From contig NZ_JAUSLE010000028.1 of the NCBI RefSeq assembly GCF_030646845.1, positions 1 through 64,000 of the forward strand: a stretch of 64,000 nt of DNA, written 5' to 3'. The translations under genes and the position numbers were made by a program. Below are positions 5,663-19,715 of the stretch, piece after piece. The notes below the pieces were generated by a model. The model saw only the letters and a program-made list of their open reading frames with translations, made no database searches and was not told the origin of the DNA. This DNA comes from Rhodoferax sp. (lineage in GTDB: Bacteria > Pseudomonadota > Gammaproteobacteria > Burkholderiales > Burkholderiaceae_C). Numbering within the stretch: the first letter of the stretch is position 1; each line of letters starts with the position of its first letter.

Positions 5663-5690
5663 AACCAAACATCGACATCAGGAGCAGAAC

Positions 5691-6731
5691 ATGAGCACGA
5701 CCCGCAAACTCACGATGGCCCAGGCGATCTCGGAGGCCATGGCCCAGGAAATGACACGCGACCCCAATGTGTTCGTCATGGGCGAAGACATTGGATCTTA
5801 TGGCGGCATCTTTGGCGCCACCGGTGGCCTGCTGGAGAAGTTCGGCCCGGACCGCATCATGGACACGCCGATTTCCGAGACGGCCTTCATCGGTACCGCA
5901 ACCGGTGCGGCGGCCGCTGGCCTGCGACCGATTGTGGAGCTGATGTTTGTCGATTTCTTCGGCGTCTGCATGGACCAGATCTACAACCATCTGGCCAAGA
6001 ACACCTACATGGCCGGCGGCAACATCAAGCTGCCGGTGGTGCTGACCACGGCGATTGGCGGCGGCTACAACGATGCCGCCCAGCACTCGCAGTGCCTGTA
6101 CGCGACCTTTGCCCACATGCCGGGCCTCAAGGTGGTGGTGCCATCGAATGCCTATGACGCCAAGGGCCTGATGATCCAGGCCATCCGCGATGACAACCCG
6201 GTCATGTTCATGTACCACAAGGGCATCATGGGCCTGCCGTGGATGGCGTATTTCGAGGGCAGCAGCAACGAGGTGCCCGAGGCGGCGTACACCATCCCGT
6301 TCGGGCAGGCCAAGGTCGTGCGCGAAGGGCAGGACGTCACCATCGTGACGATCAGCCAGATGGTGCAGAAGGCGCTGCTGGCCGCTGATGAGCTGGCGAA
6401 ACAGGGCATCAACGCCGAAGTTATTGATCTGCGCACGCTGGTGCCGCTGGACCGGGCCGCGGTGCTCAAATCAGTGGCCAAGACCGGACGGCTTTTGATT
6501 GCAGACGAGGATTACCTCGGCTTTGGACTCACCGGCGAAATCTCGGCCATCGTGGCGGAAAACCTCGATACCCTCGTGCTCAAGGCGCCCATCAAACGAC
6601 TTGCCGTACCCAATGTGCCGATTCCCTACAGCCGGCCGCTTGAGCAGTTTGTCATCCCGCAGGTGAAAGGCATTGTGGAGGCGGTTCAAAAGCTGATGCA
6701 GGCGCGCATTGCGGAAGGCGTCGCAGCATGA
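5691..6731 (+). CDS. acoB: Thiamine pyrophosphate-dependent dehydrogenase E1 component, beta subunit (AcoB/PdhB-like)
   Basis: A 346-residue E1 beta subunit: N-terminal pyrimidine-binding domain (GEDIGSYGGIFGATGGL, with the catalytic Glu region PISETAFIGTATGAA, residues about 55-70) and C-terminal transketolase-like domain (IDLRTLVPLD, and the LLIADEDY strand). It pairs with the alpha subunit to decarboxylate or cleave the substrate and pass the acyl group to a lipoyl arm. AGGAG lies just upstream of the ATG at 5691. The stop overlaps the start of the lipoyl gene (ATGA), indicating translational coupling. Confidence 0.88.
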   Translation: MSTTRKLTMAQAISEAMAQEMTRDPNVFVMGEDIGSYGGIFGATGGLLEKFGPDRIMDTPISETAFIGTATGAAAAGLRPIVELMFVDFFGVCMDQIYNHLAKNTYMAGGNIKLPVVLTTAIGGGYNDAAQHSQCLYATFAHMPGLKVVVPSNAYDAKGLMIQAIRDDNPVMFMYHKGIMGLPWMAYFEGSSNEVPEAAYTIPFGQAKVVREGQDVTIVTISQMVQKALLAADELAKQGINAEVIDLRTLVPLDRAAVLKSVAKTGRLLIADEDYLGFGLTGEISAIVAENLDTLVLKAPIKRLAVPNVPIPYSRPLEQFVIPQVKGIVEAVQKLMQARIAEGVAA

Positions 6732-6979
6732 TCGGGATCACGCTGAGCCCTGACGCGTGGAAGGATGTCGATTCGGCAACAGAGGCGCTGGTTGACAAAT
6801 GGCTGGTGGCCGAAGGCGATGCCGTGCGCGCCGGCCAGTTGTTGGCCAACGTCGTTCTCGTCAAGGCCAACCAGGACATCGTGGCACCAGCCGACGGTCG
6901 CATCGAGAAGATCCTGGTGCCGGCCGGTGAAACCTTCGCGCAGGGCAAGCCAATTGCCATGCTGAAGGGCCTGCCGTAA
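6728..6979 (+). CDS. Free-standing lipoyl (biotinyl/lipoyl-attachment) domain protein
   Basis: An 83-residue protein that consists of one lipoyl domain and nothing else. The hairpin bearing the modified lysine reads NVVLVKANQDI, so Lys46 is the attachment site; the usual DKA context is replaced by VKA. The second half, IVAPADGRIEKILVPAGETF, is the matching symmetric repeat of the fold. In standard complexes this domain is fused to an E2 acyltransferase core; here no E2 core or E3 follows. It overlaps the beta subunit by four bases, and the next gene is a lipoate ligase-like protein that could modify it. Confidence 0.85.
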   Translation: MIGITLSPDAWKDVDSATEALVDKWLVAEGDAVRAGQLLANVVLVKANQDIVAPADGRIEKILVPAGETFAQGKPIAMLKGLP

Positions 6980-7674
6980 ACACGGCGGCGCAAGAGCAGG
7001 CGTGGAACAGCCATCAGCTCTCGCTGCCGGTTGCTGCACCGCGTTGGCGCGTCTGGACCTACGCCGCACCCGCCGTTGTGCTGGGCTGTTCCCAGCGCTC
7101 CCTGCAGGATGACATCGAACACCGGCTGCAAGGTCGGGCCGAAGTGACGGCGCGTGAGTCAGGGGGCGGTGCCGTTCTGACCGGGCCCTGGCTGGTCAGC
7201 ACCTCGGTCGTTTTCCCGCCGGGGCATCCCTGGGTCTGCGACGGGCTGATCGACAGCTATCGGCGCCTGGGGCAGTTGCATGTGGAAGTACTCAAGGAAT
7301 TTGGCGTGCCGGCCCGCGCCCTGCCACCGCAGGAACTGCCGCGCACCCCTGATTCAAGCGCGGTCAATGCAGTGGGCTGGGCCTGCTTCGGCGGTCTGTC
7401 GCCGTGGGAGCTTGTCAGTGCCGAAGATCGCAAGCTGGTGGGGCTGGCGCAGCGACGGTGCCGAGCCGGCGTACTGCTCGTGGCCGGCACCCTCGTGGGC
7501 GCGGTCGACTGGCCTTTGCTCTGCGGCGCCATGGGCTACCCGCAGCATGAGCATCTGCTTCGGCGCCGCACCGTTTGCGCGGAAGAGCTTGCTGGTTGCG
7601 CGATTGAACCTGAGCGCTATGCTGCTGCCCTGATGCAATGGCTTGAACGCGAACTCTCCACAACCCCGGCGTGA
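6976..7674 (+). CDS. Lipoate-protein ligase A-like protein, start codon uncertain
   Basis: The protein resembles LplA/BirA-fold ligases: VWTYAAPAVVLGCSQRS, then RESGGGAVLTGPWLVSTSVVFP, which is the lipoyl-adenylate loop of LplA, then GWACFGGLSPWELVSAEDRKLVGLAQRR and AGTL. It would attach lipoate to the neighbouring lipoyl domain. The conserved N-terminus continues upstream of the first standard in-frame start (GTG at 7078), which would cut through the fold. Back to an in-frame stop at 6928 there is no ATG, GTG or TTG. The natural place for a start is GTA at 6976, exactly over the TAA stop of the lipoyl gene; a GTGA overlap may have mutated to GTAA. My start is therefore provisional. Confidence 0.7.
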   Translation, partial: VNTAAQEQAWNSHQLSLPVAAPRWRVWTYAAPAVVLGCSQRSLQDDIEHRLQGRAEVTARESGGGAVLTGPWLVSTSVVFPPGHPWVCDGLIDSYRRLGQLHVEVLKEFGVPARALPPQELPRTPDSSAVNAVGWACFGGLSPWELVSAEDRKLVGLAQRRCRAGVLLVAGTLVGAVDWPLLCGAMGYPQHEHLLRRRTVCAEELAGCAIEPERYAAALMQWLERELSTTPA

Positions 7675-7689
7675 AGAGTTTCAACGTCG

Positions 7690-7836
7690 CTAAAGTCGTC
7701 GGCCTTGAATGAGACGAATCAAAATCACCACGACGGCGACGACCAGCAGGATGTGGATGAATCCGCCCATGGTGTACGAGGTGACAAACCCCAGAAGCCA
7801 AAGGACAACCAGGATGACGGCAATGGTCTCAAGCAT
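7690..7836 (-). CDS. Lmo0937-family small membrane protein
   Basis: A 48-residue protein with two hydrophobic helices (MLETIAVILVVLWLLGFV and IHILLVVAVVVILIRLI) joined by the turn TSYTMGGF, ending in GRRL. This layout is that of the lmo0937 family of tiny inner-membrane proteins of unknown function, common in environmental bacteria and often stress-induced. I use the ATG at 7836 because AGGAGAAG lies a few bases upstream; a longer frame to 7887 adds a hydrophilic stretch without support. Convergent with the lipoate ligase-like gene, 15 bases apart. Confidence 0.78.
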   Translation of the reverse strand: MLETIAVILVVLWLLGFVTSYTMGGFIHILLVVAVVVILIRLIQGRRL

Positions 7837-8111
7837 TTTTCTTCTCCTATTGCGACAAGTTGCCGGATAGTAAGCCGATCGACTCACTGCTGTCCAGCGG
7901 TTTTGCGGCGGTGTGCTGCTGATGCGGACTCGGCATCCTCTTCACGGATCTGGGCATCGCCTTTGTTTGCGTGTTGTCAAAGCCCATGGTTTTTCCTGCA
8001 TGCGGTGACTTGTCGGCTGCGCTACTTCGCATTACCATTATTTTTGGGTGGCAGGCCAGGTTGCCGGCCAGTCAAGTTCAAGCACACATCAACGCTCACT
8101 GGAGGTTCCTC

Positions 8112-8426
8112 ATGATCATGCGTACCACTCTCGCCGCTGCTGTCACCGCCGTGGCTCTGCTCACCGCGTCCGGCTGTGCGGTGACCCGCGGCCAGGAAAC
8201 CGTCGGCGCCTACATCGACGACGCCGCGATTACCACCGCCGTGAAGGCGCGCTTCGCCGAGAACAAGGAAGTCGCCGCGACCAGCATCAGCGTCGAAACC
8301 CTCAATGGCACCGTCATGCTGTCAGGCTTTGCCAAGAACGCCGCGGAGAAGAGCACGGCCGAAACCATCGCGCGGGGCGTGAAAGGGGTGAAGGCAGTGA
8401 AGAACGAGATCACTGTGCGCCCGTAA
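8112..8426 (+). CDS. BON-domain lipoprotein
   Basis: A 104-residue protein. Residues 1-21 are a lipoprotein signal peptide ending in the lipobox ASGC, so the mature protein should be lipidated at Cys21. The rest is one BON domain (VGAYIDDAAITTAVKARFAE, the core glycine strand LNGTVMLSGFAKN, and the final VKGVKAVKNEITV), as in OsmY-like periplasmic proteins thought to contact phospholipids or stabilise the envelope. GGAGG lies 8 bases before the ATG. It stands alone between two small-protein genes; a weak hairpin follows. Confidence 0.85.
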   Translation: MIMRTTLAAAVTAVALLTASGCAVTRGQETVGAYIDDAAITTAVKARFAENKEVAATSISVETLNGTVMLSGFAKNAAEKSTAETIARGVKGVKAVKNEITVRP

Positions 8427-8436
8427 ACGTCCGCGC

Positions 8437-8463
8437 AGGCGCGCATCGGGGGTCGATGCGCCT
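8437..8463 (+). terminator. Hairpin downstream of the BON lipoprotein gene
   Basis: AGGC-GC-GCATCG (8437-8448) pairs with CGATGC-GCCT (8454-8463) around a short G-rich loop, giving a stem of about 10 bp with a two-base bulge, 11 bases after the stop. No T-run follows, so it may protect the 3' end or act as a weak terminator. Confidence 0.4.
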
Positions 8464-8637
8464 GTGTCAGCCATGAGTCAAGGTCGTATCGATAATGCGG
8501 TGCGGTACAGCATGGCGCTGATCTGTTGCGACAGTTTTTGAACGGAGTCGATTCTCTTTGGGGTCGTGTCGTACCACACGGCTAAAAATAACAAGTCACG
8601 GTGCGTGCAGGGCGTGACATCCCATCGAGGACGACTC

Positions 8638-9231
8638 ATGTTTTTTTCAGGTATCGCACGCGCCAGCCGCGTGTCGGTGGTGTTGGCAGCACTCTCTCTT
8701 GCGGCCGCGGGCAGTGTTGCCGCTGCGCCAACTTCGACCAAGTTCGAACCCTCCCAGACAGTACAGGGGACCCCCCTGGCGCTCAACGGCGCGGGCACCC
8801 GCTACCGGGCTATCTTCAAGGTGTATGACATGGCCTTGTACACCCAGGGCAAGGTTGGCACGCCGGAAGCGCTGCTGGCGCTGCCCGGCCCCAAGCGGTT
8901 GAACTTTGTTGCACTGCGCGATGTGCCTGGCACCGATCTGGGCCTGGCCTTCATCAAGGGTCTGGCAGCCAACTCGACACCTGAACTGACGCAGAAACAC
9001 ACGGCATCAAGCACCCGCCTGATCGAGATATTTTCCGGCCGCCCCAAGCTGGCCACCGGGGACAGTTTCGCCATGGAGTACCTGCCCGGCAAGGGCACCA
9101 CTTTCTACATCGTTGGCCAGCCCCAGGGCGCGCCGGTGGGCGATGCCGAGTTCTTCGGAATGGTGCTGAAAATCTGGGTCGGCGCCAACCCGGCCGACTT
9201 CAAACTCAAGGACGCCTTGCTGGGTCTGTAG
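8638..9231 (+). CDS. Chalcone isomerase-family periplasmic protein
   Basis: A 197-residue protein with a cleavable signal peptide (hydrophobic VSVVLAALSLAAAGSVAAAP, residues about 11-30). The mature part has the bacterial chalcone-isomerase-like pattern: NGAGTRYRAIFKVYDMALYT, RLNFVALRDVPGTDLGLAF, then GDSFAMEYLPGKGTTFYIVG and FFGMVLKIWVG. In bacteria this fold is not usually a flavonoid enzyme; it may bind fatty acids or other small ligands in the periplasm. GAGGA lies 7 bases before the ATG. The gene seems monocistronic: a GC hairpin follows the stop. Confidence 0.82.
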   Translation: MFFSGIARASRVSVVLAALSLAAAGSVAAAPTSTKFEPSQTVQGTPLALNGAGTRYRAIFKVYDMALYTQGKVGTPEALLALPGPKRLNFVALRDVPGTDLGLAFIKGLAANSTPELTQKHTASSTRLIEIFSGRPKLATGDSFAMEYLPGKGTTFYIVGQPQGAPVGDAEFFGMVLKIWVGANPADFKLKDALLGL

Positions 9232-9236
9232 CTTGC

Positions 9237-9253
9237 GGCGCCAGTCTGGCGCC
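9237..9253 (+). terminator. GC hairpin after the chalcone isomerase-family gene
   Basis: GGCGCCA (9237-9243) and TGGCGCC (9247-9253) form a perfect 7-bp stem with a 3-base loop starting 5 bases after the stop codon. The following bases are pyrimidine-rich but not a T-run, so termination efficiency is uncertain. Confidence 0.45.
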
Positions 9254-9340
9254 TGCCCTTGCCTGCCCGAGTGCCGGGCCGGGCCCGCCGTGTTTGCGCC
9301 CATAATGGCCCGCAAACAATTCAGGGACGGGACAACCAGA

Positions 9341-11161
9341 ATGGCAACCCTCATACCGGCGCTTGGCGCCTGCGCATCGCGCATGGAGCCGGGCGAGCGT
9401 CGGCTGGCCGAACGGCTGGAACACAAGCTCGACGACGACTACCTGCTCTGGTACGACGTGCCGATGGGCCCGCGCAACGCCCACCCCGACTTTTGCGTGA
9501 TGCACCCGCGCCGCGGCATTCTGGTGCTGGAGGTGAAGGACTGGAAGCTCGCCACCATCCAGCAGGCCGACAAACTGACGTGGACCATCATCCCCGACGG
9601 CATTCCCAAGACCGTCATCAATCCGCTGGAGCAAGCCCGCCAGTACGCGCACCAGGTGGTGGGCGCACTGGAGCGCGACCCGCAACTGGTGCAGGCGGAT
9701 GGCGCCCACGCCGGCAAGCTGGCATTCCCCTGGAGCTATGGCGTGGTGTTTACCAACATCACGCGCAAACAGTTTGAAGCCGCTGAACTGCAGCACGCCA
9801 TCGAACCGCACCGCGTGCTGTGCCAGGACGAAATGCTGGAGAGCGTGGGCGCCGAAGAACTGCAAAGCCGCCTGTGGGACATGTTCCCCTACATGATGCG
9901 TGGCGTGATGAGCCTGCCGCAGCTGGACCGCGTGCGCTGGATCATGTTTCCGCAGGTGCGCGTACAAACGCAAAGCGCCCTGTTTGACGACACCGACGCG
10001 GACGCCGAGATGCCCAGCATCATGCGCGTGATGGACCTGCAGCAAGAGCAGCTGGCCCGCAGCCTGGGCGACGGCCACCGCGTGATCCACGGCGTGGCGG
10101 GCTCGGGCAAGACCATGATTCTGGGCTACCGTGCGGAGTATCTGGCGCAAGCCAGCACCGCCAGCAGCAAACCCATTCTCATCCTGTGCTTTAACGAGCC
10201 GCTGGGCGTGAAGCTGCACAGCGTGATGGACGCCAAGGGCCTGAGCGACAAGGTGCATGTGCGGCATTTTCATAAATGGTGCCGCGACCAGCTGGTGGCT
10301 TTTGGGCAAACCCTGCCGGCCCAGATGGGCAGCCAGCAGTATGTGGAAGAGCTGGTGCAGCGCGTCATTACCGCCGTAGACCGCAAGCAAATCCCCAGCG
10401 GCCAGTACCAGGCCGTGCTGATTGACGAAGGCCACGACTTTGCCCCCGAATGGCTCAGATTGGTTACCCAAATGGTGGACCCCACCACCAACAGCCTGCT
10501 CCTGCTGTACGACGATGCGCAAAGCATCTACGAGCGTGCGCGCAGCAAGCAGTTCAGCTTCAAAAGCGTGGGCGTGCAGGCGCAGGGCCGCACCACCATT
10601 CTGAAAATCAACTACCGCAACACCAAGCAGATTCTGCAAACCGCCAATCTGATTGCGGCCGACCTGCTAACCGCGGATGACCGCGACGACGACGGCATCC
10701 CGCTGGTCAAACCCGTCAGCTGCGGGCGCGAAGGGCAAGCGCCCATCCTCATCAAGCTGCCCAGCCTGCATGAAGAGGCTTATGCCATTGCCGACCAACT
10801 GAGCCACGCCCACAAAGAGGGCCACGCCTGGGGCGACATGGCCATCCTGTGCGCGGACTGGAAAACCATGGACCTGTGCGCCGACGCCCTGCGCCAGCGC
10901 AAGCTGCCGTTCAATGTGCGCAAGCGCACCGGCGAATACAACCCCGCAGCCGACGCCATCCAGATCATGACCATGAAGGTCAGCAAAGGCCTGGAGTTCC
11001 CCGTGGTGGCTCTCCCCGGCGTGGGGCACATGCCCGCCAAGGGCGAAGACGAGCAGGAGGCCGCGCGGGTGTTTTATGTGGCGGCGACGCGAGCGACGCA
11101 GAGGTTGGTGATTGGGGTGGGCGGGGATGGGGGATTTGCGCGGAGGTTGGCGGGTGAGTAG
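9341..11161 (+). CDS. NERD-domain protein with UvrD/Rep-type superfamily I helicase
   Basis: About 606 residues. The N-terminal 110 or so residues are a nuclease-related NERD domain (EPGERRLAERLEHKL, PDFCVMHPRRGILVLEVKDWK, with the ExK active-site pattern). A superfamily I helicase follows: Walker A GVAGSGKT, motif Ia ILILCFNEPLG, motif II LIDEGHDF, motif III LYDDAQSIY, motif IV NYRNTKQIL, motif V MTMKVSKGLEF and motif VI YVAATRATQRL, so ATPase function looks intact. Likely role is DNA repair or defence against foreign DNA. I start at the ATG at 9341; ATG 9305 is also possible. Base composition is chromosomal, unlike the cassette that follows 105 bases downstream. Confidence 0.85.
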   Translation: MATLIPALGACASRMEPGERRLAERLEHKLDDDYLLWYDVPMGPRNAHPDFCVMHPRRGILVLEVKDWKLATIQQADKLTWTIIPDGIPKTVINPLEQARQYAHQVVGALERDPQLVQADGAHAGKLAFPWSYGVVFTNITRKQFEAAELQHAIEPHRVLCQDEMLESVGAEELQSRLWDMFPYMMRGVMSLPQLDRVRWIMFPQVRVQTQSALFDDTDADAEMPSIMRVMDLQQEQLARSLGDGHRVIHGVAGSGKTMILGYRAEYLAQASTASSKPILILCFNEPLGVKLHSVMDAKGLSDKVHVRHFHKWCRDQLVAFGQTLPAQMGSQQYVEELVQRVITAVDRKQIPSGQYQAVLIDEGHDFAPEWLRLVTQMVDPTTNSLLLLYDDAQSIYERARSKQFSFKSVGVQAQGRTTILKINYRNTKQILQTANLIAADLLTADDRDDDGIPLVKPVSCGREGQAPILIKLPSLHEEAYAIADQLSHAHKEGHAWGDMAILCADWKTMDLCADALRQRKLPFNVRKRTGEYNPAADAIQIMTMKVSKGLEFPVVALPGVGHMPAKGEDEQEAARVFYVAATRATQRLVIGVGGDGGFARRLAGE

Positions 11162-11163
11162 TG

Positions 11164-11229
11164 ATATCAATATTACTGATTCTGGCCAGAATTGATATTG
11201 GGCTACGCCCACTCGAGGAAGTAGTGGGC
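11164..11229 (+). promoter_or_regulatory. Nested inverted repeats upstream of the CBASS-like cassette
   Basis: ATATCAAT (11164-11171) and ATTGATAT (11191-11198) form a perfect 8-bp inverted repeat. Inside lies a second perfect palindrome, ATTCTGGCCAGAAT (11179-11192). A third pair, GCCCACT (11207-11213) and AGTGGGC (11223-11229), could form an RNA hairpin ahead of the patatin start at 11267. This looks like an operator plus leader hairpin, but no regulator gene is encoded in the cassette. Confidence 0.45.
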
Positions 11230-11266
11230 CAAGTAGACTTGTTAAAAACAAACCAGGGAGCAAACA

Positions 11267-12229
11267 TTGACTGAAATCACGACGGTGTCTTCGCTGACGG
11301 CCGAACACCAAAGCGACGGCGTATTCCGTATCCTCTCTCTTGACGGTGGCGGTGCGAAGGGCTTCTATACCCTTGGCGTACTCAAAGAGATCGAGGCAAT
11401 GCTGGGTTGCCCGCTCTACAAGCGATTCGACCTCGTGTTCGGCACGAGTACAGGTGCGATCATCGCTTCGCTCATCGCGCTCGGGTACGAGGTTGATCAA
11501 ATACACGACCTCTACAAAGAGCATGTCCCACGCGTAATGGCTCAGAAGTCCCCCGCAGCTAAGACGGCTGCGTTGAGTAGTCTGGCAAAGCAAGTATTTA
11601 AAGAGAAGACCTTTGAAGATGTCATGACCGGCATAGGCGTAGTCACCACTAGGTGGATGACTGAACGACCGATGATTTTCAAGGGCAAGGTGGCGCAAGC
11701 CCATGGCCGTGTTGGAACATTCAAGCCTGGATTTGGGGTCAGCGTCGCAGATGCAGTGCAGGCATCTTGCTCAGCCTACCCTTTCTTTGAGAGAAAAATA
11801 GTCACCACGGCTGCGGGTGACAAGGTCGAGTTGATCGATGGCGGTTACTGCGCAAACAATCCAACTCTCTACGCAATTGCCGATGCCGTCGTGGCGCTCA
11901 AGAAGGAGCGCAAAGACATACGCGTGGTCAGCGTTGGTGTCGGGGTGTATCCAGAACCTAAGCCCGGATTCCTAATGTGGGTGGCGAAAAAGTGGCTTGC
12001 GGTTCAATTGCTGCAGAAAACGTTGGAGATAAACACGCAGTCAATGGACCAACTTCGTGAAATTCTCTTTAAAGATATCGAGACTATTCGGATCAGTGAC
12101 ACATTCGAGCGGCCAGAGATGGCAACTGATTTGATGGAACACAACGTTGACAAGCTTAATGTCTTGCGCCAACGGGGAAGCGAGTCGTTCGCTTCACGAG
12201 AAAAGCAGCTCCGAAACTTCCTGATCTGA
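11267..12229 (+). CDS. Patatin-like phospholipase, probable CBASS effector (CapV/CapE-like)
   Basis: A 320-residue patatin: oxyanion loop LDGGGAKGFYTLG (residues 26-38), nucleophile elbow FGTSTGAIIAS (Ser61) and catalytic Asp191 in IDGGYCANNPTLYAIADA. In CBASS systems of the CapV type such an enzyme is switched on by a cyclic nucleotide and degrades the inner membrane, killing the infected cell. Start is TTG at 11267, with AGGGAG 6 bases upstream. The CD-NTase starts 8 bases after its stop, so the two form one operon. GC content is visibly lower (near 50%) than the flanking genes, a sign of transfer. The CBASS role rests on the paired gene. Confidence 0.85.
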   Translation: MTEITTVSSLTAEHQSDGVFRILSLDGGGAKGFYTLGVLKEIEAMLGCPLYKRFDLVFGTSTGAIIASLIALGYEVDQIHDLYKEHVPRVMAQKSPAAKTAALSSLAKQVFKEKTFEDVMTGIGVVTTRWMTERPMIFKGKVAQAHGRVGTFKPGFGVSVADAVQASCSAYPFFERKIVTTAAGDKVELIDGGYCANNPTLYAIADAVVALKKERKDIRVVSVGVGVYPEPKPGFLMWVAKKWLAVQLLQKTLEINTQSMDQLREILFKDIETIRISDTFERPEMATDLMEHNVDKLNVLRQRGSESFASREKQLRNFLI

Positions 12230-12237
12230 TTGGATAA

Positions 12238-13137
12238 ATGAAAATGGGAATACCTGAATCGCAGCTGGACACGTGGTCGCATCAAGGATCTATCACACAG
12301 TCGGCTACCACTTACAACACCATCAAGAACGCACTGGAGCATGCTGGTACGGGGTACGCTGGAAAAAACTACAAGGTGTTTCTGCAGGGTTCTTACGGCA
12401 ATGACACGAACATCTATTCCGAGAGCGACGTAGATGTCGTGATCCGACTTGATGATGTGTACTTCAGCGATGTTACGAACCTGTCCCCTGAAGAAAAGAG
12501 CGCCTTCGACAATGCGTTTGTCGCTGCGACATACACATACGACGAGTACAAGAAGGACGTGCTTAAGGCGCTTACAGACAGGTTCGGTACTGACGCGAAA
12601 GTTGGCGACAAGGCTATCGCAATCGCAGCCAATGGAGGCAGGCGAAAGGCGGATGTAATTGCCGCGATGCAGTTTCGTCGCTATTGGAAGTTCAAGGGTA
12701 CTTACGATGAAAGATATGACGAGGGTATATGTTTCTTGAATGGGGATGGTGAGCGAATTGCCAACTATCCAAAGCAGCATTCGACGAATCTGACAACGAA
12801 GCATCAGGATTGCAACAAGTGGTTGAAGCCGATGGTTCGTATCCTCAAGAACCTACGAAGCAAGCTGGTCGCAGATGGCTCGCTGAAGGCCGGGGTTGCG
12901 CCGTCGTACTACCTTGAAGGGCTTCTCTACAACGTGCCAAGTGACAAGTTCGGAAGGAGCTATCACGATTGCTTTGTAAACGCAATGAACTGGATTCAAA
13001 GTGAAGCGGACAAAGATAACTTGTTATGTGCCAATGAGCAGTACTACTTGCTTCGGGACGGCTCACACACCTGCTGGGAAAAGTCCAGCGCAGAGGCGTT
13101 CCTGAACGCAGCTATTGGGGCATGGAATGACTGGTGA
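12238..13137 (+). CDS. CD-NTase, CBASS cyclic-oligonucleotide synthase
   Basis: A 299-residue CD-NTase-type nucleotidyltransferase. Active-site elements: [11 protein letters not shown] (GS at 51-52), SDVDVVIRL (Asp64 and Asp66) and the third carboxylate in [10 protein letters not shown] (Asp139), so the catalytic triad is intact. The C-terminal half is helical ([30 protein letters not shown]), as in OAS-like folds of CBASS cyclases. It would make a cyclic di- or trinucleotide on phage infection to activate the upstream phospholipase. No E1/E2/JAB, HORMA/TRIP13 or other accessory gene follows, so this would be a minimal type I system. Low GC, same as the partner. The clade and product cannot be decided by eye. 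Confidence 0.88.
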
Positions 13138-13316
13138 CGCGACAGTGCGCTGGCTGAGTGAGCCCGCTCCAGGAGTGAGGATCACCATGTGATGATTCTG
13201 CTCGGGCGCTTACGGATTGGCTATGAGCCAAACGCCTCATGGCAAGGTGAATTCAAGTTGCAGGGAGAGGCGCGGGATGGCGTCGATGGTGCGCGGGGCT
13301 GGGGTTTACGGTGCGA

Positions 13317-13373
13317 TCCTGATTTGATAGCGGCTTGCGCAGGTAGGACGAGGGCTGGAGCCCGATTTGGCAC
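13317..13373 (+). repeat. Comamonadaceae interspersed repeat, copy 1
   Basis: Copy of a repeat of about 57 bp with core TTGATAGC...TGCGC, then GGGCTnnAGCCC and ATTTGGCAC. It sits at the truncated end of the Fic remnant. Between the CD-NTase stop (13138) and this repeat I see no gene or structure I can support. Confidence 0.75.
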
Positions 13374-13426
13374 ACAAGTCGTACCCCGTACTGCGCTCGC
13401 CATCTTCCAGCCTGCGGAGCACTTGA

Positions 13427-13627
13427 CCAGCGTTGCCAGAACTGGGCTTTGTCCAGCATGCGGGCCAAAGTGGCATCTGCGCCCAGCACGGCGCGCGACA
13501 GGCAGCCCAAGAACCAGCTGAGCCAGGGTGTCACGTCCAGCGGTCCTTTTTGGGTGGCCTCCAGTTGGCCGTAATAGTATTTGCGTTCGCGCTGTATCTG
13601 GGCGCTAAAGCTGTAGAAGCGTTGGCG
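13427..13627 (-). pseudogene. Remnant of a Fic family protein (C-terminal part only)
   Basis: The minus strand reads, without interruption, a peptide starting RQRFYSFSAQIQRERKYYYG, then LEATQKGPLDVTPWLSW, FLGCLSRAV and DKAQFWQRW. This is the conserved region just after the Fic/AMPylation domain in DUF4172-type Fic proteins. A TGA lies immediately upstream in frame (13628-13630) and no Fic HPFxxGNGR motif is present, so the catalytic domain is gone. Downstream of FWQRW the reading runs into non-homologous sequence and then the interspersed repeat. Conclusion: a decayed toxin-like gene fragment beside the CBASS cassette. Confidence 0.72.
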
Positions 13628-13686
13628 TCAGCGATGGGGGCGCTTATTCGCCGCAATTTGTGCGGTGAATGCATGCAGAGTCAGTT

Positions 13687-14586
13687 TCAAAGCCGTTCAG
13701 CAAACCGCCGCGACAGCAAGAACTCCACAAACGTAGCCGTATTCAGTGCCAGCCATTGGCGCGCCGGGTACACCGCATACAGCGACGGCCCACTGGGCAG
13801 GCGGTAGGCCGGGAGCAGTTCGACCAGTGCACCACTGGCCAGCTCCTGCTCCACCAAAAGGCGGTCCAGCACGGTGACGCCCGCCCCGGCACAGGCCGTG
13901 GCCACTAGGGCCATGCCGTCGTTGATGCGGATACGGCCCTGCACCCGGACCAGGGTGGTGGTGTCGTCCAGCATGAAGGTCCATTCGTCGAACACGCGGT
14001 TGTCGCGCGTCCACAGCAGGCATTCGTGCTGCGCCAGATCCTGGGGCACTGCGGGCACCCCGGCGCGTGCCAGGTAGGCAGGTGCCGCCACCAGCACGCG
14101 GGGGTTGTCGGCCAGTTTGCGCGCCACCAGCGTGGAGTCGTCGAGATGCGCCACACGGATGGCCACGTCGATCTGCTCGGCGATCAGGTCGCTCATGCGG
14201 TCTTCCACCAGCAGCGTCAGCTCCACCAGGGGGTGCAGTTGCGTAAATTCGGTGATCAGGGGCACCAGATGGCGCTGCCCCAGCGGGCGCGGGCAGGCCA
14301 CGCGCAAGGGGCCGCGCACCTCCTGCTGGAACTGGCCAGAAATTTGCGCCACGTTGCTCAGGGCGCGGTCAATCTGCTGGGCTTGCAGCAGCACCACCTT
14401 GCCCACCTCCGTCAGCGTTAACTTGCGCGTGGTGCGCTGGATCAGGCGTGCGCCGAGGTCGGCTTCCAGCCGGGCCAGCTGGCGCGAAAGGACAGACTTG
14501 CCGCAGCCCTGCCGGGTGGCCGCAGCGCTGATGCTGCCCGCATTGACGATGGCCGAGAAGGTGGTGAGGAGTTGGGGATTGAGCAT
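13687..14586 (-). CDS. LysR family transcriptional regulator
   Basis: A 299-residue LysR protein: N-terminal winged helix-turn-helix (LLTTFSAIVNAGSISAAATR, SVLSRQLARLEADLGARLIQRTTRKLTLTEVG), then an effector-binding domain of the CrgA type (GPLRVACP, LTLLVEDRMSDLIAEQIDVAIRV). It is divergent from the nitroreductase gene, with a perfect LysR-type operator in between, so it most likely controls that gene and itself. The inducer is unknown; quinones or nitroaromatics are possible given the target. Confidence 0.88.
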   Translation of the reverse strand: MLNPQLLTTFSAIVNAGSISAAATRQGCGKSVLSRQLARLEADLGARLIQRTTRKLTLTEVGKVVLLQAQQIDRALSNVAQISGQFQQEVRGPLRVACPRPLGQRHLVPLITEFTQLHPLVELTLLVEDRMSDLIAEQIDVAIRVAHLDDSTLVARKLADNPRVLVAAPAYLARAGVPAVPQDLAQHECLLWTRDNRVFDEWTFMLDDTTTLVRVQGRIRINDGMALVATACAGAGVTVLDRLLVEQELASGALVELLPAYRLPSGPSLYAVYPARQWLALNTATFVEFLLSRRFAERL

Positions 14587-14601
14587 GGCTAGCGGTTTAT
14601 T

Positions 14602-14618
14602 GTTGCTCTAAAAGCAAC
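14602..14618 (+). promoter_or_regulatory. LysR-type operator between regulator and nitroreductase
   Basis: GTTGCT-CTAAA-AGCAAC is a perfect inverted repeat with 6-base arms and a 5-base centre. It fits the T-N11-A pattern of LysR boxes and lies 16 bases upstream of the regulator start, on the nitroreductase side. Confidence 0.6.
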
Positions 14619-14709
14619 TCAATTGTGCTTTATTGGGGCTTCTCAGGCAACGGTATTGCTTCTACATTCGATACCAACATACCCCAACCCCTATCCAAGG
14701 AAGCTTTGC

Positions 14710-15411
14710 ATGACCCAGTCCGCCACTCTCGCAGCACCCGCAAACACCGAACTCCCCAGCACCCAGGAGATGCCATCGGACGCCATGATCGAGCGCCTGC
14801 AGTGGCGCTACGCCGCCAAAAAGATGGACCCCGCCAAAGCGGTGCCCCACAACAAAGTGGAGCGCATTCTGGAAGCCGCGCGCCTGGCACCCACCTCCAG
14901 TGGCTTGCAGCCCTACGAGATCATTGTGGTGACGAGCAAAGAGGTGCGCGAGCGCATCAAGCCCATCGCCTGGAACCAGGGCCAGATCACCGATGGCTCG
15001 CATCTGCTGGTGTTTGCGGCGTGGGACAACTACACGGTCGAGCGCATCAACATGATGTTCGACCTGACCAACACCGTGCGCGGCTTTAAAAACGAGGGCT
15101 GGGAGAACTACCGCAACATGCTGCTGGGCATGTACCCGCAGCGCGATGCCGAGGTAAACCACCAGCATGCGGCGCGCCAGGCCTACATTGGCATGACCGC
15201 TGCCATGCTGGCCGCCGCCTTTGAAGAGGTGGATTGCACCCCGATGGAAGGCTTTGACCCCAAGGCGCTGGACGAGATTTTGAACCTGCGCGAGCGGGGC
15301 CTGCGCAGCGTGGCCATTTTGCCGCTGGGCTACCGCGAGGCAGACAAGGACTGGCTGGTGAACCTGACCAAAGTACGCCGCCCGCGCGAGCAGTTCATCA
15401 CGGAAGTCTGA
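14710..15411 (+). CDS. NAD(P)H-dependent oxidoreductase, nitroreductase family
   Basis: A 233-residue flavin enzyme of the nitroreductase fold. Visible signatures: LQWRYAAKKMDPAKAVP (FMN phosphate contact through RYAAKK), ILEAARLAPTSSGLQPYEI and the C-terminal GLRSVAILPLGYREADKDW, as in NfsB/YfkO-like NAD(P)H dehydrogenases. It probably reduces quinones or nitro compounds. AAGGAAG lies a few bases before the ATG at 14710. Divergent from the LysR gene and likely under its control. Confidence 0.88.
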   Translation: MTQSATLAAPANTELPSTQEMPSDAMIERLQWRYAAKKMDPAKAVPHNKVERILEAARLAPTSSGLQPYEIIVVTSKEVRERIKPIAWNQGQITDGSHLLVFAAWDNYTVERINMMFDLTNTVRGFKNEGWENYRNMLLGMYPQRDAEVNHQHAARQAYIGMTAAMLAAAFEEVDCTPMEGFDPKALDEILNLRERGLRSVAILPLGYREADKDWLVNLTKVRRPREQFITEV

Positions 15412-15479
15412 TCACCGAAGGCCCGATCCCGCTGGCGTTCTGAGACTGAAATCAACCCTCAGAACCGCAGAGTGATTTG

Positions 15480-15538
15480 CTCTGATTTTGATAGCTACTG
15501 GCGCACATTTCACGGGGGCTACAACCCAATTTGGCATT
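15480..15538 (+). repeat. Comamonadaceae interspersed repeat, copy 2
   Basis: The copy reads TTTTGATAGCTACTGGCGCA, then CGGGGGCTACAACCCAATTT and GGCATT. It lies between the convergent nitroreductase and ATPase genes, and its last bases overlap the TAA stop of the ATPase gene. Confidence 0.8.
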
Positions 15539-16712
15539 AACCCTGTGCCAACAGCGCGGCCAGCTCCTGCAAGCCAATCGCCTGCGCCCCATGGCGCAGG
15601 GGGATGCGCTCTTGCCCCGGGTACACCACGTAGCACTGCGCAATCTGCAGGTCGTCGCAGGCAATGGCGAAGCCCTTTTCCGGGCTGGGCGCCACGGAGC
15701 GTTTGATCTCGATGGCCATCTCGGGTTTGCCGCCTTTTTCCAGCACCAGGTCAATTTCCGCGCCGACCTGGGTGCGGTAGAAGTAGGGCACGCGGCGGCT
15801 GCCGGCGGCCTGGATCAGGTTCTCAATGCAATGGCCCTCATAGCTCAGGCCGCACACGGGGTGGCCCAGCAGGTCGTTCAGAGTTTCCAGTTCCAGCAGG
15901 CCGTGCAGCAGGCCGCTGTCGCGCACATAGACCTTGGGCGACTTGACCAGCCGTTTGCCCAGGTTGCCGCCCCAGGGCCGCAGGCGGCGCACCAGCTGCA
16001 GGTCCACCAGCAGGTCGATGTAGCGGTCTATGGTGGGGTTGGCCACGCCCAGCGCGCTGGCAATGCGCGCCTGGTTGAGTACACTGCCCTGGTTGTGCGC
16101 CAGCATGGTCCACAGTCGGCCAATGGTCTCGGCCGGCAGGCGGGGCGCAAACATGGGCACGTCGCGTTCCAGGTAGCTGCGGATAAAGTCGCGCCGCCAG
16201 TTCAGGCTTTGGGTATCGTCAGCAGCTAACAGGCTGTCGGGGAAACCGCCGCGCAGCCACAGGGTGCTGTCGGCAATGCCAGCCGCAGCGGCTTCACCGG
16301 TGTTGAGCGGGGCAATGTCGAGGTAGGCCACGCGCCCGGCCAGTGTTTCGCTGGATTGGCGCATCAGGTCCAGCGCCGCCGAGCCCAGTAGCAAAAACTG
16401 CCCGCTGCGCAGGCCGGCTTGCCGGTTGTCGTCAATGATGCCGCGCAAGATTTCAAACACGCCGGGAGCGCGGTGGATCTCGTCCAATATGACCAGCTTG
16501 CCCTGCTGGGCTCGCAAGTAGGTGTCGGCATCTTCCAACCGAAGACGGTCGGCGGGGCGCTCCAGGTCCAGGTACACCGCGCCGCCGGGCCAGTCCTTGG
16601 CAAGGGTGCGGGCCAGCGTGGTTTTGCCCACTTGGCGCGGCCCCAGCAGCACCACAGCAGGGGTTTGGAGCAGTTTCTGGCGGACGGTGGATTCAAATTG
16701 GCGACTTATCAT
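15537..16712 (-). CDS. ATP-binding protein, AAA ATPase with DUF4143 domain
   Basis: A 391-residue protein. N-terminal AAA domain: Walker A LLGPRQVGKTTLART, the strand GKLVILDEIHRAPG (Walker B) and LLLGSAALDLMRQSSETLAGR. The C-terminal DUF4143 domain, with a PD-(D/E)XK-like core, reads YFYRTQVGAEIDLVLEKGG and EMAIEIKRS. Such proteins are widespread, often mobile, and have been linked to defence or toxin functions without a settled role. Stop overlaps a repeat. Upstream, an AT-rich palindrome of 35 bp abuts the start, suggesting self-control. No clear ribosome-binding site. Confidence 0.87.
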   Translation of the reverse strand: MISRQFESTVRQKLLQTPAVVLLGPRQVGKTTLARTLAKDWPGGAVYLDLERPADRLRLEDADTYLRAQQGKLVILDEIHRAPGVFEILRGIIDDNRQAGLRSGQFLLLGSAALDLMRQSSETLAGRVAYLDIAPLNTGEAAAAGIADSTLWLRGGFPDSLLAADDTQSLNWRRDFIRSYLERDVPMFAPRLPAETIGRLWTMLAHNQGSVLNQARIASALGVANPTIDRYIDLLVDLQLVRRLRPWGGNLGKRLVKSPKVYVRDSGLLHGLLELETLNDLLGHPVCGLSYEGHCIENLIQAAGSRRVPYFYRTQVGAEIDLVLEKGGKPEMAIEIKRSVAPSPEKGFAIACDDLQIAQCYVVYPGQERIPLRHGAQAIGLQELAALLAQG

Positions 16713-16713
16713 T

Positions 16714-16748
16714 ATTGCAATTTTAACGAATTAAGTTAATTTTGCAAT
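16714..16748 (+). promoter_or_regulatory. AT-rich palindrome at the DUF4143 ATPase start
   Basis: ATTGCAA (16714-16720) and TTGCAAT (16742-16748) are perfect arms, with TTAAC and GTTAA nested inside at symmetric places. The whole is a near-perfect 35-bp dyad in otherwise GC-rich DNA, beginning 2 bases upstream of the ATPase start. It is likely an operator/promoter, perhaps autoregulatory. Confidence 0.55.
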
Positions 16749-16874
16749 GCAAATATGAATCTCCCTGGTATTGAAGGGCACCCGTTCGTCATTTGAGTGA
16801 CCGGCCGTTAACCAACCAGCAAGTACCATGGCAACGAATCAACCTGCCCGCCATGGGCGCCAACGGAGAAAGTT

Positions 16875-17252
16875 ATGTTCAGTCATGTGATGTTCGGTGT
16901 GAATGACCTTGAGGTCTCGAAGAAGTTTTACGACGCGCTGCTTGGCACGCTGGGCATTGCCCCCGGGGTTGCCAACAAGAGCCGGTATTTCTATCGCAGC
17001 CCCACCGGTACCTTCGGCATCACCACGCCCATCAATGGCGAGCCCGCGACCCACGGCAATGGCAGCACGCTCGGGTTTACCGTGCAGTCGCCGGAACAAT
17101 GTGACGCGTTCCATGCGGCCGGCATCGCCAACGGCGGCACCACCTGCGAAGAACCCCCGGGCTTTCGCGACGGCGCGGTGGGCAAGCTCTACCTGGCGTA
17201 TCTGCGCGACCCGGACGGCAACAAGATCTGCGCGCTGCACCGCCCGACATGA
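16875..17252 (+). CDS. VOC family protein (glyoxalase/dioxygenase superfamily)
   Basis: A 125-residue vicinal oxygen chelate protein: MFSHVMFGVNDLEVSKKFYDALLG at the start, FGITTPINGEP, and the C-terminal module LYLAYLRDPDGNKICALH with the metal-ligand region. Likely a metal-dependent lyase/isomerase or binding protein of unknown substrate. GGAGAAAG precedes the ATG. It overlaps a possible ATG of the next gene (ATGA), and the zinc-ribbon gene follows closely, so the two probably share a transcript. Confidence 0.85.
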   Translation: MFSHVMFGVNDLEVSKKFYDALLGTLGIAPGVANKSRYFYRSPTGTFGITTPINGEPATHGNGSTLGFTVQSPEQCDAFHAAGIANGGTTCEEPPGFRDGAVGKLYLAYLRDPDGNKICALHRPT

Positions 17253-17263
17253 GGAGCAGCAGC

Positions 17264-17515
17264 ATGACCCAAGACTTGAATCAACCCGACGAATCGAAAA
17301 AACCGGCGCTGTGCGACTCGTGCGCTGGCATCCAGCGCAACTGGCGCGGCGCGCCCGGCCACCCCGAGCTGATGCAAGGCGTCAACCGCAAGGAACCGCG
17401 CAGCCACGGCCAGGTCACCATCACCAAGTACCGCTGTGAACGCTGCGGCACACAGTGGGAGTACGAGAACAACAAGGTCAACCTCCACGCGGGCTGGTCG
17501 GTGGTGGGCGAATAG
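17264..17515 (+). CDS. Small zinc-ribbon protein
   Basis: An 83-residue protein with two CxxC pairs, CDSC and CERC about 45 residues apart, which should bind one zinc. The rest is polar, with GHPELMQG and TQWEYENNKVNLHAGW. No known domain name comes to mind. I start at the ATG at 17264, preceded by GAGGAG, rather than at 17249, which overlaps the upstream stop. Lies between the VOC gene and the glutathione transferase on the same strand. Confidence 0.7.
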   Translation: MTQDLNQPDESKKPALCDSCAGIQRNWRGAPGHPELMQGVNRKEPRSHGQVTITKYRCERCGTQWEYENNKVNLHAGWSVVGE

Positions 17516-17577
17516 CTTTCCAGCCAAAATAGGCGCATCAGGGCGCTCGTCGCCCGCTTCCCTTTCAAGGAGCCACC

Positions 17578-18282
17578 ATGACCGATCTCTCCAGCTTCCC
17601 CATCACCAAAAAATGGCCCGCCCAGCATCCCGAGCGGCTGCAGCTCTACTCGCTGCCCACGCCCAACGGGGTCAAGGTGTCGATCATGCTGGAGGAGACC
17701 GGCCTGCCGTATGAGCCGCATCTGGTGAGCTTTGAGAGCCACGACCAGCTGTCGCCGGAATTCCTCTCGCTCAACCCCAACAACAAGATTCCGGCCATCA
17801 TCGACCCCAACGGCCCGGGCGGCAAACCGCTGGCGCTGTTCGAGTCCGGCGCGATCCTGATTTATCTCGCGGAGAAGACGGGCCTGTTTCTTCCGCAGGA
17901 TGCGGCGCAGCGCTACGAGACGATCCAGTGGCTGATGTGGCAGATGGGCGGCGTCGGCCCGATGATTGGCCAGCTGGGCTTCTTTCACAAGTTCGCCGGC
18001 AAGGACTATGAGGACAAACGCCCGCGTGACCGCTACGTGACCGAGGTCAGGCGCCTGCTGGGCGTGCTGAACCAGCGTCTCGCTGGCCGCACCTGGATCA
18101 TGGGTGACGCCTACACCATTGCCGACATTGCCACCTTCCCGTGGATGCGCAACCTGATCGGGTTCTATGGCGCAGGTGACCTGGTGGGCATGCCGGATTT
18201 CCCGCATGTGACGCGGGCGCTGGACGCGTTTATTGAGCGCCCGGCGGTAGCGAGCGGTCTAGAAATACCTGCTCGCTCCTGA
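17578..18282 (+). CDS. Glutathione S-transferase, YghU-like
   Basis: A 234-residue GST of the nu/YghU type: N-terminal thioredoxin-like domain (LQLYSLPTPNGVKVSIMLEE, SLNPNNKIPAIIDPNGPGG, LFESGAILIYLAEKTG, where the ES pair binds glutathione) and C-terminal helical domain (WLMWQMGGVGPMIGQLGFF, YTIADIATFPWM). In YghU this architecture gives disulfide reductase activity. Its TGA stop (18280-18282) lies in an interspersed repeat, and the last residues (LEIPARS) may have been altered by it. An AAGGAGCC stretch precedes the ATG. Confidence 0.9.
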   Translation: MTDLSSFPITKKWPAQHPERLQLYSLPTPNGVKVSIMLEETGLPYEPHLVSFESHDQLSPEFLSLNPNNKIPAIIDPNGPGGKPLALFESGAILIYLAEKTGLFLPQDAAQRYETIQWLMWQMGGVGPMIGQLGFFHKFAGKDYEDKRPRDRYVTEVRRLLGVLNQRLAGRTWIMGDAYTIADIATFPWMRNLIGFYGAGDLVGMPDFPHVTRALDAFIERPAVASGLEIPARS

Positions 18283-18333
18283 TTTGATAGCTATTCAGGC
18301 AGACAACACGGGGGCTGGGTGCCGAATTTGCTC
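18277..18333 (+). repeat. Comamonadaceae interspersed repeat, copy 3
   Basis: Reads TGATTTGATAGCTATTCAGG, then CGGGGGCTGGGTGCCGAATT and TG. Lies between the convergent GST and DUF2917 genes and supplies the GST stop codon. Confidence 0.8.
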
Positions 18334-18338
18334 TGAGC

Positions 18339-18653
18339 TCAGGCAGCTTGCAGCGCGAAAGTCACTTTGGCGCCTGAGGCCGCGTGCGTTCGGCCCATCC
18401 GGCGTACCGGGGCGACGGACGGCACCATGGCCAGACTGAGGGACGAAGGCCGCAGCGCATAGATCAAGGCGCGGCGATGTTCGGTCGCCGTAAAGCTGTC
18501 CCCGGCGTCAAGGACGACATCGCGCGTGTCGCCATCCAGCGTGACCCACACACTGCCCTCGTGGCAGGCGATTTGGACCCCGGCGGCGTCGGACACGTTG
18601 AACATCGCCTGGTGGGCGAGGGACAGGTCAAACTGGTTGGAAGTGGTGTTCAT
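18339..18653 (-). CDS. DUF2917 domain-containing protein
   Basis: A 104-residue protein starting MNTTSNQFDLSLAHQAMF. The core, VQIACHEGSVWVTLDGDTRDVVLDAGDSF, is the DUF2917 beta-fold (cupin-like strands ending in DxGDSF). AAGGACTGCC precedes the ATG. It diverges from a LysR regulator with a palindrome between them; DUF2917 genes next to LysR genes recur in Burkholderiales. Function unknown; the C-terminal 40 residues are basic and disordered-looking. Confidence 0.8.
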   Translation of the reverse strand: MNTTSNQFDLSLAHQAMFNVSDAAGVQIACHEGSVWVTLDGDTRDVVLDAGDSFTATEHRRALIYALRPSSLSLAMVPSVAPVRRMGRTHAASGAKVTFALQAA

Positions 18654-18665
18654 GGCAGTCCTTTC

Positions 18666-18688
18666 ATATTCGGTGTGAGAATGAATAT
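18666..18688 (+). promoter_or_regulatory. Candidate LysR operator between DUF2917 and LysR genes
   Basis: ATATTC (18666-18671) and GAATAT (18683-18688) are perfect arms separated by 11 bases in an AT-rich stretch, the usual place and shape of a LysR-type box controlling both divergent genes. Confidence 0.5.
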
Positions 18689-18734
18689 ACTGACCGACTC
18701 CTAATCTATCAAACGGTGAATTGGAATCTCTAGC

Positions 18735-19715
18735 ATGCAGCCAAGGAATGCCAAATCTCCCGCCTCCGCGACTGTTGTGCGGGGCATCCGGCGCGCGGAA
18801 CTGCCGCCGCTGAACCTGCTTTACAGCTTCGAGGCGGCGGCGCGCACACTGAGCTTCACCCATGCGGCCACCGAGTTGTTCCTGACGCAATCGGCCGTCA
18901 GCCGGCAGATCCAGCAGATCGAGAGCGGGCTCGGCACCGCGCTGTTCGAACGGCGCCACCGCGCGCTCGCGCTCACCGAAGCCGGCAAAGTCATGCAGCG
19001 CGCGGTCAACGATTGCCTGGAGCGCCTGCGCGATGCCACCGCCATCGTGCGCGCTGCCCAGGCACCACGGCAGGTAGCCATCACCACCACACCCGGTTTC
19101 GCCTCGCTGTGGCTGATTCCCCGGCTGGCCCGCTTCACTGCCAGCCATCCTTCGGTGGACGTGCGGATTTCCGCCACGATGGACCTGTTGGACTTGCAGC
19201 GCAGCGGCATTGATGTGTCGGTGCGCCTGAGCACCATCAGCCGGGGCGTTGGCACTGCCCTGTTTGAGGAGCAGGTGCTGCCCGTCTGCGCGCCGCAACT
19301 GCTGAAGAACCCCGCGCTCCCCTTGAAGAAGCCGGCCGACCTGGCCAGGCACACCCTGCTGGCCATCGACACGCCGCAGGGCCAGCCGCTGAACATCGAC
19401 TGGGAGCCCTGGTTCAAGGTGATGGGGCTGCCGGAGTTGCGCATGAAGAACACCTTGCGGTTCACGCAATATTCCGATGTCGTGGCGGCGGCTGTGGCCG
19501 GGCAGGGCGTGGCGATTGGCCGCCTGCCGCTGCTTGACGCGATGCTGCGCGACGGCAGGCTGGTCGCGCCCTTCGGTAGCGCAGCATCTCATTTCGGCTA
19601 TTTTGTGAACGTGGCGCCGCGCTCGGCCGGCAATGCCGACGCACAGGATTTCGTGCGCTGGCTGATGGCCGAGGCCGAACTGGCCAAGACACTGGAGCCC
19701 GGGAAAAGCAGATGA
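18735..19715 (+). CDS. LysR family transcriptional regulator, GcvA-like
   Basis: A 326-residue LysR protein of the GcvA group: LPPLNLLYSFEAAARTLSFT and ATELFLTQSAVSRQIQQIES (recognition helix), LFERRHRALALTEAG, then an effector domain starting VAITTTPGFASLWLIPRLA. A basic N-terminal extension of about 22 residues precedes the HTH. Likely target: the divergent DUF2917 gene. DUF1439 follows 28 bases downstream on the same strand and may be co-transcribed. Confidence 0.87.
   Translation: MQPRNAKSPASATVVRGIRRAELPPLNLLYSFEAAARTLSFTHAATELFLTQSAVSRQIQQIESGLGTALFERRHRALALTEAGKVMQRAVNDCLERLRDATAIVRAAQAPRQVAITTTPGFASLWLIPRLARFTASHPSVDVRISATMDLLDLQRSGIDVSVRLSTISRGVGTALFEEQVLPVCAPQLLKNPALPLKKPADLARHTLLAIDTPQGQPLNIDWEPWFKVMGLPELRMKNTLRFTQYSDVVAAAVAGQGVAIGRLPLLDAMLRDGRLVAPFGSAASHFGYFVNVAPRSAGNADAQDFVRWLMAEAELAKTLEPGKSR

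Follow-up and report, generated by a model that had tools for sequence, protein, structure and literature searches.

A phospholipase–CdnE gene pair as a probable two-gene type I CBASS operon of the DS-2 lineage without the diadenylate cyclase gene

Does a phospholipase gene followed by a nucleotide cyclase gene form a complete anti-phage system when the nearest relatives of the pair carry a third gene? Here, we addressed this question for a gene pair found in a window of 64 kb (the whole stretch of Rhodoferax DNA analysed). On the plus strand, a gene at 11267–12229 encodes a patatin-like phospholipase effector of 320 aa (CBASS; NCBIfam DS2_1) with a TTG start and Ser61/Asp191, and, after an intergenic sequence of 8 bases (12230–12237), a gene with an ATG start at 12238–13137 encodes a clade-E-like CD-NTase of 299 aa (CdnE; NCBIfam DS2_2), a predicted cUMP-AMP synthase. 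Both reading frames, and the gap between them, are as described in the original prediction, and the two genes are likely carried on one transcript. We consider it highly probable that they constitute the operon of a type I CBASS from the phospholipase/CdnE lineage of DS-2, two-gene and free of a diadenylate cyclase (DAC) gene, which was acquired horizontally into a slot for defence genes. Two elements go beyond the original prediction, namely the link to DS-2, with nearest loci that carry the DAC gene, and a recurrent defence slot behind a helicase gene.

The TTG start of the patatin gene holds: an E. coli relative has its annotated ATG at the aligned position, and GGGAG precedes the TTG. By contrast with the original prediction, which gave the cassette a structured leader, folding of this segment barely beats that of shuffled sequences (z −1.51, with 15 of 200 shuffles equalling it), and on these figures we rejected the leader as a regulatory RNA. 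No sigma-70-like promoter was recognised on the plus strand between 11000 and 13700. The lower GC content attributed to the pair was borne out: the cassette stands at 0.511 (patatin gene 0.523, cyclase gene 0.501), below every one of the 1168 overlapping windows of equal length in the rest of the 64 kb (minimum 0.568, mean 0.631, sd 0.019).

A type I CBASS, as defined in PMC10419184, consists of one cyclic-nucleotide synthase and one effector, and the window holds a CD-NTase with its catalytic residues and an adjacent effector, with no ancillary gene seen among the neighbouring ORFs. Indeed, the patatin dyad is intact, with Ser61 in a GTSTG motif and Asp191 in a DGG motif, and among relatives Ser61 is kept in 61 of 62 rows (the exception being a gap) and Asp191 in all 62. 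Similarly, the cyclase residues G51-S52, Asp64/Asp66 and Asp139 lie where they had been placed and are identical across 66 of 66 cyclase rows. The patatin matches Pfam PF01734 (1.9e-29), with the CBASS-type phospholipase effector PDLC00755 as its best PADLOC model (5e-170), and the cyclase matches Pfam SMODS PF18144 (27.9 bits against a cut-off of 26.5), with the oligonucleotide cyclase PDLC00788 as its best PADLOC model (1.7e-131). Accessory E1/E2/JAB or HORMA/TRIP13 genes, the absence of which had been noted, were not found among nine neighbouring ORFs (5592–19592; no PADLOC hit at 1e-4), and two further neighbours belong to other families, a NERD-UvrD helicase and an AAA/DUF4143 ATPase. The type I reading is thus supported by the assignment of the pair, by PADLOC and the NCBIfam equivalogs, to an anti-phage phospholipase and nucleotidyltransferase, and by the recurrence of the pairing, since a patatin gene immediately precedes the cyclase gene in 61 of the 64 related genome loci. 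The other three comprise L081 and L088, with no patatin gene in reach, and L106, cut by the contig end; in L054, L069 and L105 the match is partial.

Both window proteins exceed the cut-offs of the NCBIfam equivalogs DS2_1 (NF053870; 520.8 bits, cut-off 400) and DS2_2 (NF053871; 462.7 bits, cut-off 350), so that two of the three DS-2 components are present. To judge from their name and three-gene make-up, the NCBIfam DS2 models would stand for the DS-2 system of PMC13092281, where it is described as a phospholipase, a cGAS and a DAC, and is proposed as possibly a new CBASS type with two cyclases. According to the same source, DS-2 no longer defended once the predicted catalytic residues of its DAC were mutated, and 15 of 30 DAC homologs adjoin a CBASS. 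In the E. coli locus L128, the genes are named by NCBI as anti-phage phospholipase, nucleotidyltransferase and protein, and its third gene scores as NF053872 (DS2_3). For the third-gene copies of L043 and L127, Pfam lists the sensor domains DACNG and DACNH and no catalytic DAC domain, and the identity as a DAC is therefore taken from PMC13092281.

Neither a DS2_3 (DAC) gene nor a remnant of one was found in the window, where the L043 and L127 proteins as queries gave a best E value of 0.95. Nor was the gene found in the genome of the window (G000) with the L127 protein as query, in a search of five genomes in all that recovered three of three known carriers and left the gene-free L048 negative. 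In the 60 relatives, searched without a positive control, no DAC gene was detected. A DAC gene lies nearby in 11 of the 64 related genome loci (L043–L046, L058–L060, L075, L083, L091 and L101); in L060 and L083 it has the opposite orientation. Of the remaining 53 loci, 44 show none in the DNA examined and nine break off no more than 600 bases from the cyclase gene, too close to be judged. The window cyclase is 81% identical to that of the DAC-bearing locus L075. Given that DAC mutants lost defence, a DAC-free pair from the adjoining branch may have no activity or a different mode of action.

The question is then whether the two-gene state is original or reduced. The 67 loci considered for phylogeny comprise the 64 genome loci, L127, L128 and the window, 62 of them with both proteins long enough. 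In the 62-row tree, the window is sister to a clade of eight rows, all with the DAC gene, and in a more careful tree, built from 36 of these rows, both the DAC clade and the grouping of the window with it receive support values of 100/99. On the 62-row tree, the DAC label requires five changes. A gain in the sister clade takes one step, while a gain before the split followed by a loss in the window takes two, so that an originally two-gene locus in the window is the simpler explanation. That the locus is instead the remnant of a three-gene DS-2 which has lost its DAC gene, and with it its defence, appears unlikely to us, even if it is the best of the competing explanations. It would fit the presence of the third gene in all eight sister-clade rows, including the E. 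coli DS-2 locus, the loss of defence reported for DAC catalytic mutants in PMC13092281, and a gene remnant in the DNA behind the cyclase gene. However, the window falls outside the DAC clade, which makes a loss one step costlier than a gain in that clade, 44 related loci likewise show no DAC gene in the DNA examined (nine more being truncated near the cyclase gene), no trace of a DAC gene was found in the window, and both reading frames are open with their active-site residues present. As far as sequences can tell, an early two-gene branch is thus likelier than a broken DS-2. Such a two-gene sister makes possible a comparison that bears on why DS-2 requires its DAC: if the pair defends alone, the DAC would be a later addition that became indispensable in one branch.

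The signal nucleotide of the pair may be predicted from its cyclase. The nearest solved relative is the distant Rm-CdnE (PDB 6e0k/6e0l; 9.9e-56, 192 bits), 6e0l being identified as RmCdnE in PMC10442399. That paper describes, in CdnE enzymes, a conserved acceptor-site Asn (Rm N166) that picks uracil and an (R/Q)xW motif in the C-terminal loop that limits the donor site to pyrimidines, and, in Rm-CdnE, a donor site with Cys252 and Glu265 that accepts adenine; these specificity rules derive from CdnE enzymes distant from that of the window. Counting residues along the pairwise PDB alignment places N176, C264 and T278 of the window cyclase opposite Rm N166, C252 and E265, respectively. Asn is found at position 176 in all 66 rows, and Cys at position 264 in 65 of 66 (the other being a gap), whereas position 278 is Thr in 31 rows, Val in 28, and Arg or Gln in none; the window reads T278-C279-W280 and so has no (R/Q)xW. 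On account of N176, C264 and T278, we predict cUMP-AMP, and not cGAMP, as the product, which gives a definite form to the original proposal that the signal may differ from that of DncV. The prediction agrees with the name of the effector structure PDB 9iom, 'cUMP-AMP-activated phospholipase', which the patatin matches over residues 3–320 (6e-175, 583.8 bits) and whose chain aligns to the phospholipase of the E. coli DS-2 locus L128 with no mismatches over 320 residues. Our literature search found no paper tied to 9iom. Upon phage infection, the CdnE would join UTP and ATP into cUMP-AMP, which would activate the patatin to cut membrane phospholipids, and the cell would die or stall before phage maturation, a course corresponding to abortive infection.

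It is very improbable, in our view, that the pair signals by cGAMP to a CapV-type phospholipase in the manner of DncV/CapV. The effector does belong to the same family, as reflected in weak matches to CapV structures (e.g. 8zr9) and in a match to the NCBIfam model CBASS_lipase, but this match reaches 140.7 bits and stays below the cut-off of 200, while the DS2_1 cut-off is clearly surpassed. Moreover, the five PDB sequences that match the cyclase at E values up to 1 are all CdnE-type and none is DncV, and N176 predicts uracil at the acceptor site. The cyclase also matches the NCBIfam model CBASS_cyclase_b under its cut-off. A housekeeping nucleotidyltransferase set beside a lipase by chance, to which a sub-cut-off match to NTP_transf_2 might point, can be practically dismissed, as no housekeeping model was passed (archaeal CCA, 16.6 bits against a cut-off of 281.3), the PADLOC and NCBIfam defence-family scores are strong, cyclase and patatin genes recur together across the related loci, and the pair is absent from near relatives. 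The original prediction had named two findings that would overturn it, a housekeeping identity of the second protein and conservation of the pair in all relatives at chromosomal GC, and neither was observed.

Loci related to the cassette are spread over Pseudomonadota, Bacteroidota, Verrucomicrobiota, Chloroflexota and other phyla. Among the 36 same-genus genomes within the 60 relatives searched, the window's own genome matches and 34 show no match, so that the pair is not conserved in the genus. The one remaining genome, G010 (L002), has a weak match of 25% identity to the cyclase in a frame of 374 aa, perhaps another CD-NTase. Distant blastn matches were obtained in 18 of 5426 E. coli genomes, and 51 plasmid records match, one at 80–90% identity and 50 below 60%; no match was found in 50,697 phage records. 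We infer that the cassette was gained horizontally. Repeats that might bound the insert (two direct pairs, one of 15 nt and one of 12 nt, and an inverted pair of 12 nt) were taken as chance. Other features of the related loci deserve mention. In L128 (4026–10897), on an E. coli chromosome, the annotation shows the DS-2 set directly followed by a CBASS of the DncV type, which has a phospholipase of its own as well as an E2/UBC gene, so that two phospholipase CBASS stand in tandem. L049, L051, L052, L056, L057 and L082 have, upstream of the patatin gene and on the opposite strand, a gene for a protein of about 300 aa; that of L051, the one of the six that was scanned, has a WYL domain and is a possible regulator.

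To the left of the pair, a NERD-UvrD helicase gene (9323–11161, plus strand; PADLOC, Pfam) anchors the insertion slot and lies outside the CBASS. We rejected the helicase as a CBASS part, because it occurs in none of the 64 related loci within up to 6 kb on each side. Of 60 genus genomes, 23, that of the window included, have a near-full-length copy, the one in G025 containing a single internal stop. We compared 20 of the other 22 helicase loci (L107–L126), in which the genes directly downstream vary. Of 17 downstream proteins, hand-chosen from 14 of these loci (L114, L115, L116, L120, L122 and L125 not being among them), 15 match PADLOC at 1e-5, and the matches include DRT3, type I and III restriction, PD-T4-1, Gabija A and B, PifA-like, PDC-S01, PDC-S02, PDC-S06, Fic and others, in addition to a weak match to Avs1b. 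The two without a PADLOC match at this threshold are a GIY-YIG protein (L108) and a NERD protein (L123). By blastp, L115 and L116 have genes related to the one for PDC-S02 in L110. As a control, one of ten proteins encoded upstream of the helicase, a Fic gene, has a PADLOC match, the upstream ORFs being partly noisy. Since the downstream proteins were hand-chosen and the upstream ORFs noisy, these counts give a strong hint, and not a measured enrichment, that the slot behind the helicase holds exchanged defence genes in the genus; it is a place in which to seek more of them.

On the right side of the insert, tblastn revealed a remnant of a Fic-family gene (13366–13624, minus strand), which is 80% identical to a gene of G060 over 74 aa, with a further 19 aa at 84%, and 72% identical to a gene of G024 over 74 aa. 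The G060 and G024 genes are blastp relatives of L126_2, scored as Fic by Pfam; the remnant's own ORF has no Pfam hits. In both genomes the gene follows the helicase and its cargo, which is Gabija in G060 and a GIY-YIG gene in G024. Flank alignment yielded no empty site, the right side of relatives being too divergent, and we delimited the slot by the helicase on the left and the Fic remnant on the right instead. Further to the right, the AAA/DUF4143 ATPase gene (15537–16712, minus strand) matches the PADLOC candidate PDC-S01 (8.6e-86), and in G022 (L009) a stretch 86% identical to it lies directly behind the helicase, so that the ATPase may belong to the helicase slot. On the left, a chalcone-isomerase-like gene (8566–9231) is located between a gene at about 7971–8426, BON-like by eye, and the helicase; DNA resembling the BON-like gene sits immediately before the helicase in L006, L007 and L014.

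Downstream of the helicase gene, six of the 20 loci (L110, L115, L116, L117, L120 and L121) hold displaced copies of its 3′ end, seven in all, a count that leaves out a 35-base match in L112. Six of them start within about 10 bases of the motif-V-coding ATGAAGGTCAGC point, and the L116 copy starts about 16 bases further in. Five lie behind a PDC-S02 gene or its remnant, while the other two (the first copy of L120 and that of L121) have a similar left flank in common, so that perhaps just two independent junctions are represented. The window has no displaced copy. The pattern looks as if cargo enters by recombination at the ATGAAGGTCAGC point. Taken together, these observations allow a broader but tentative reading, which we hold to be possible rather than probable. 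In it, the window would carry a working DAC-free sister of DS-2, the second cyclase having been added elsewhere to an already complete two-gene system and become essential there, and would carry it in the helicase slot. Equally tentatively, the slot would have its defence cargo swapped by recombination near the fixed ATGAAGGTCAGC point, displaced 3′ ends being left behind, and it might, with the same reserve, be a defence-cargo slot undescribed in the literature searched.

Compared with known systems, the pair resembles the type II CBASS of DncV/CapV in combining a patatin effector with a CD-NTase, but differs from it in having no E1-E2 or JAB gene among the neighbouring ORFs, an effector under the CBASS_lipase cut-off and a CdnE-like cyclase. 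With Rm-CdnE, which makes cUA, the window cyclase shares the acceptor-site Asn and the donor-pocket Cys, whereas Thr takes the place of Rm Glu265 in this distant homolog. The cUMP-AMP-activated phospholipase of PDB 9iom, 9ion, 9iop and 9ioq is matched along nearly the whole window patatin, as a separate ortholog. DS-2 has a DAC, whereas no DS2_3 gene was found in the window, and with an E. coli locus bearing the DS-2 gene names the window shares its gene order and 72% DNA identity.
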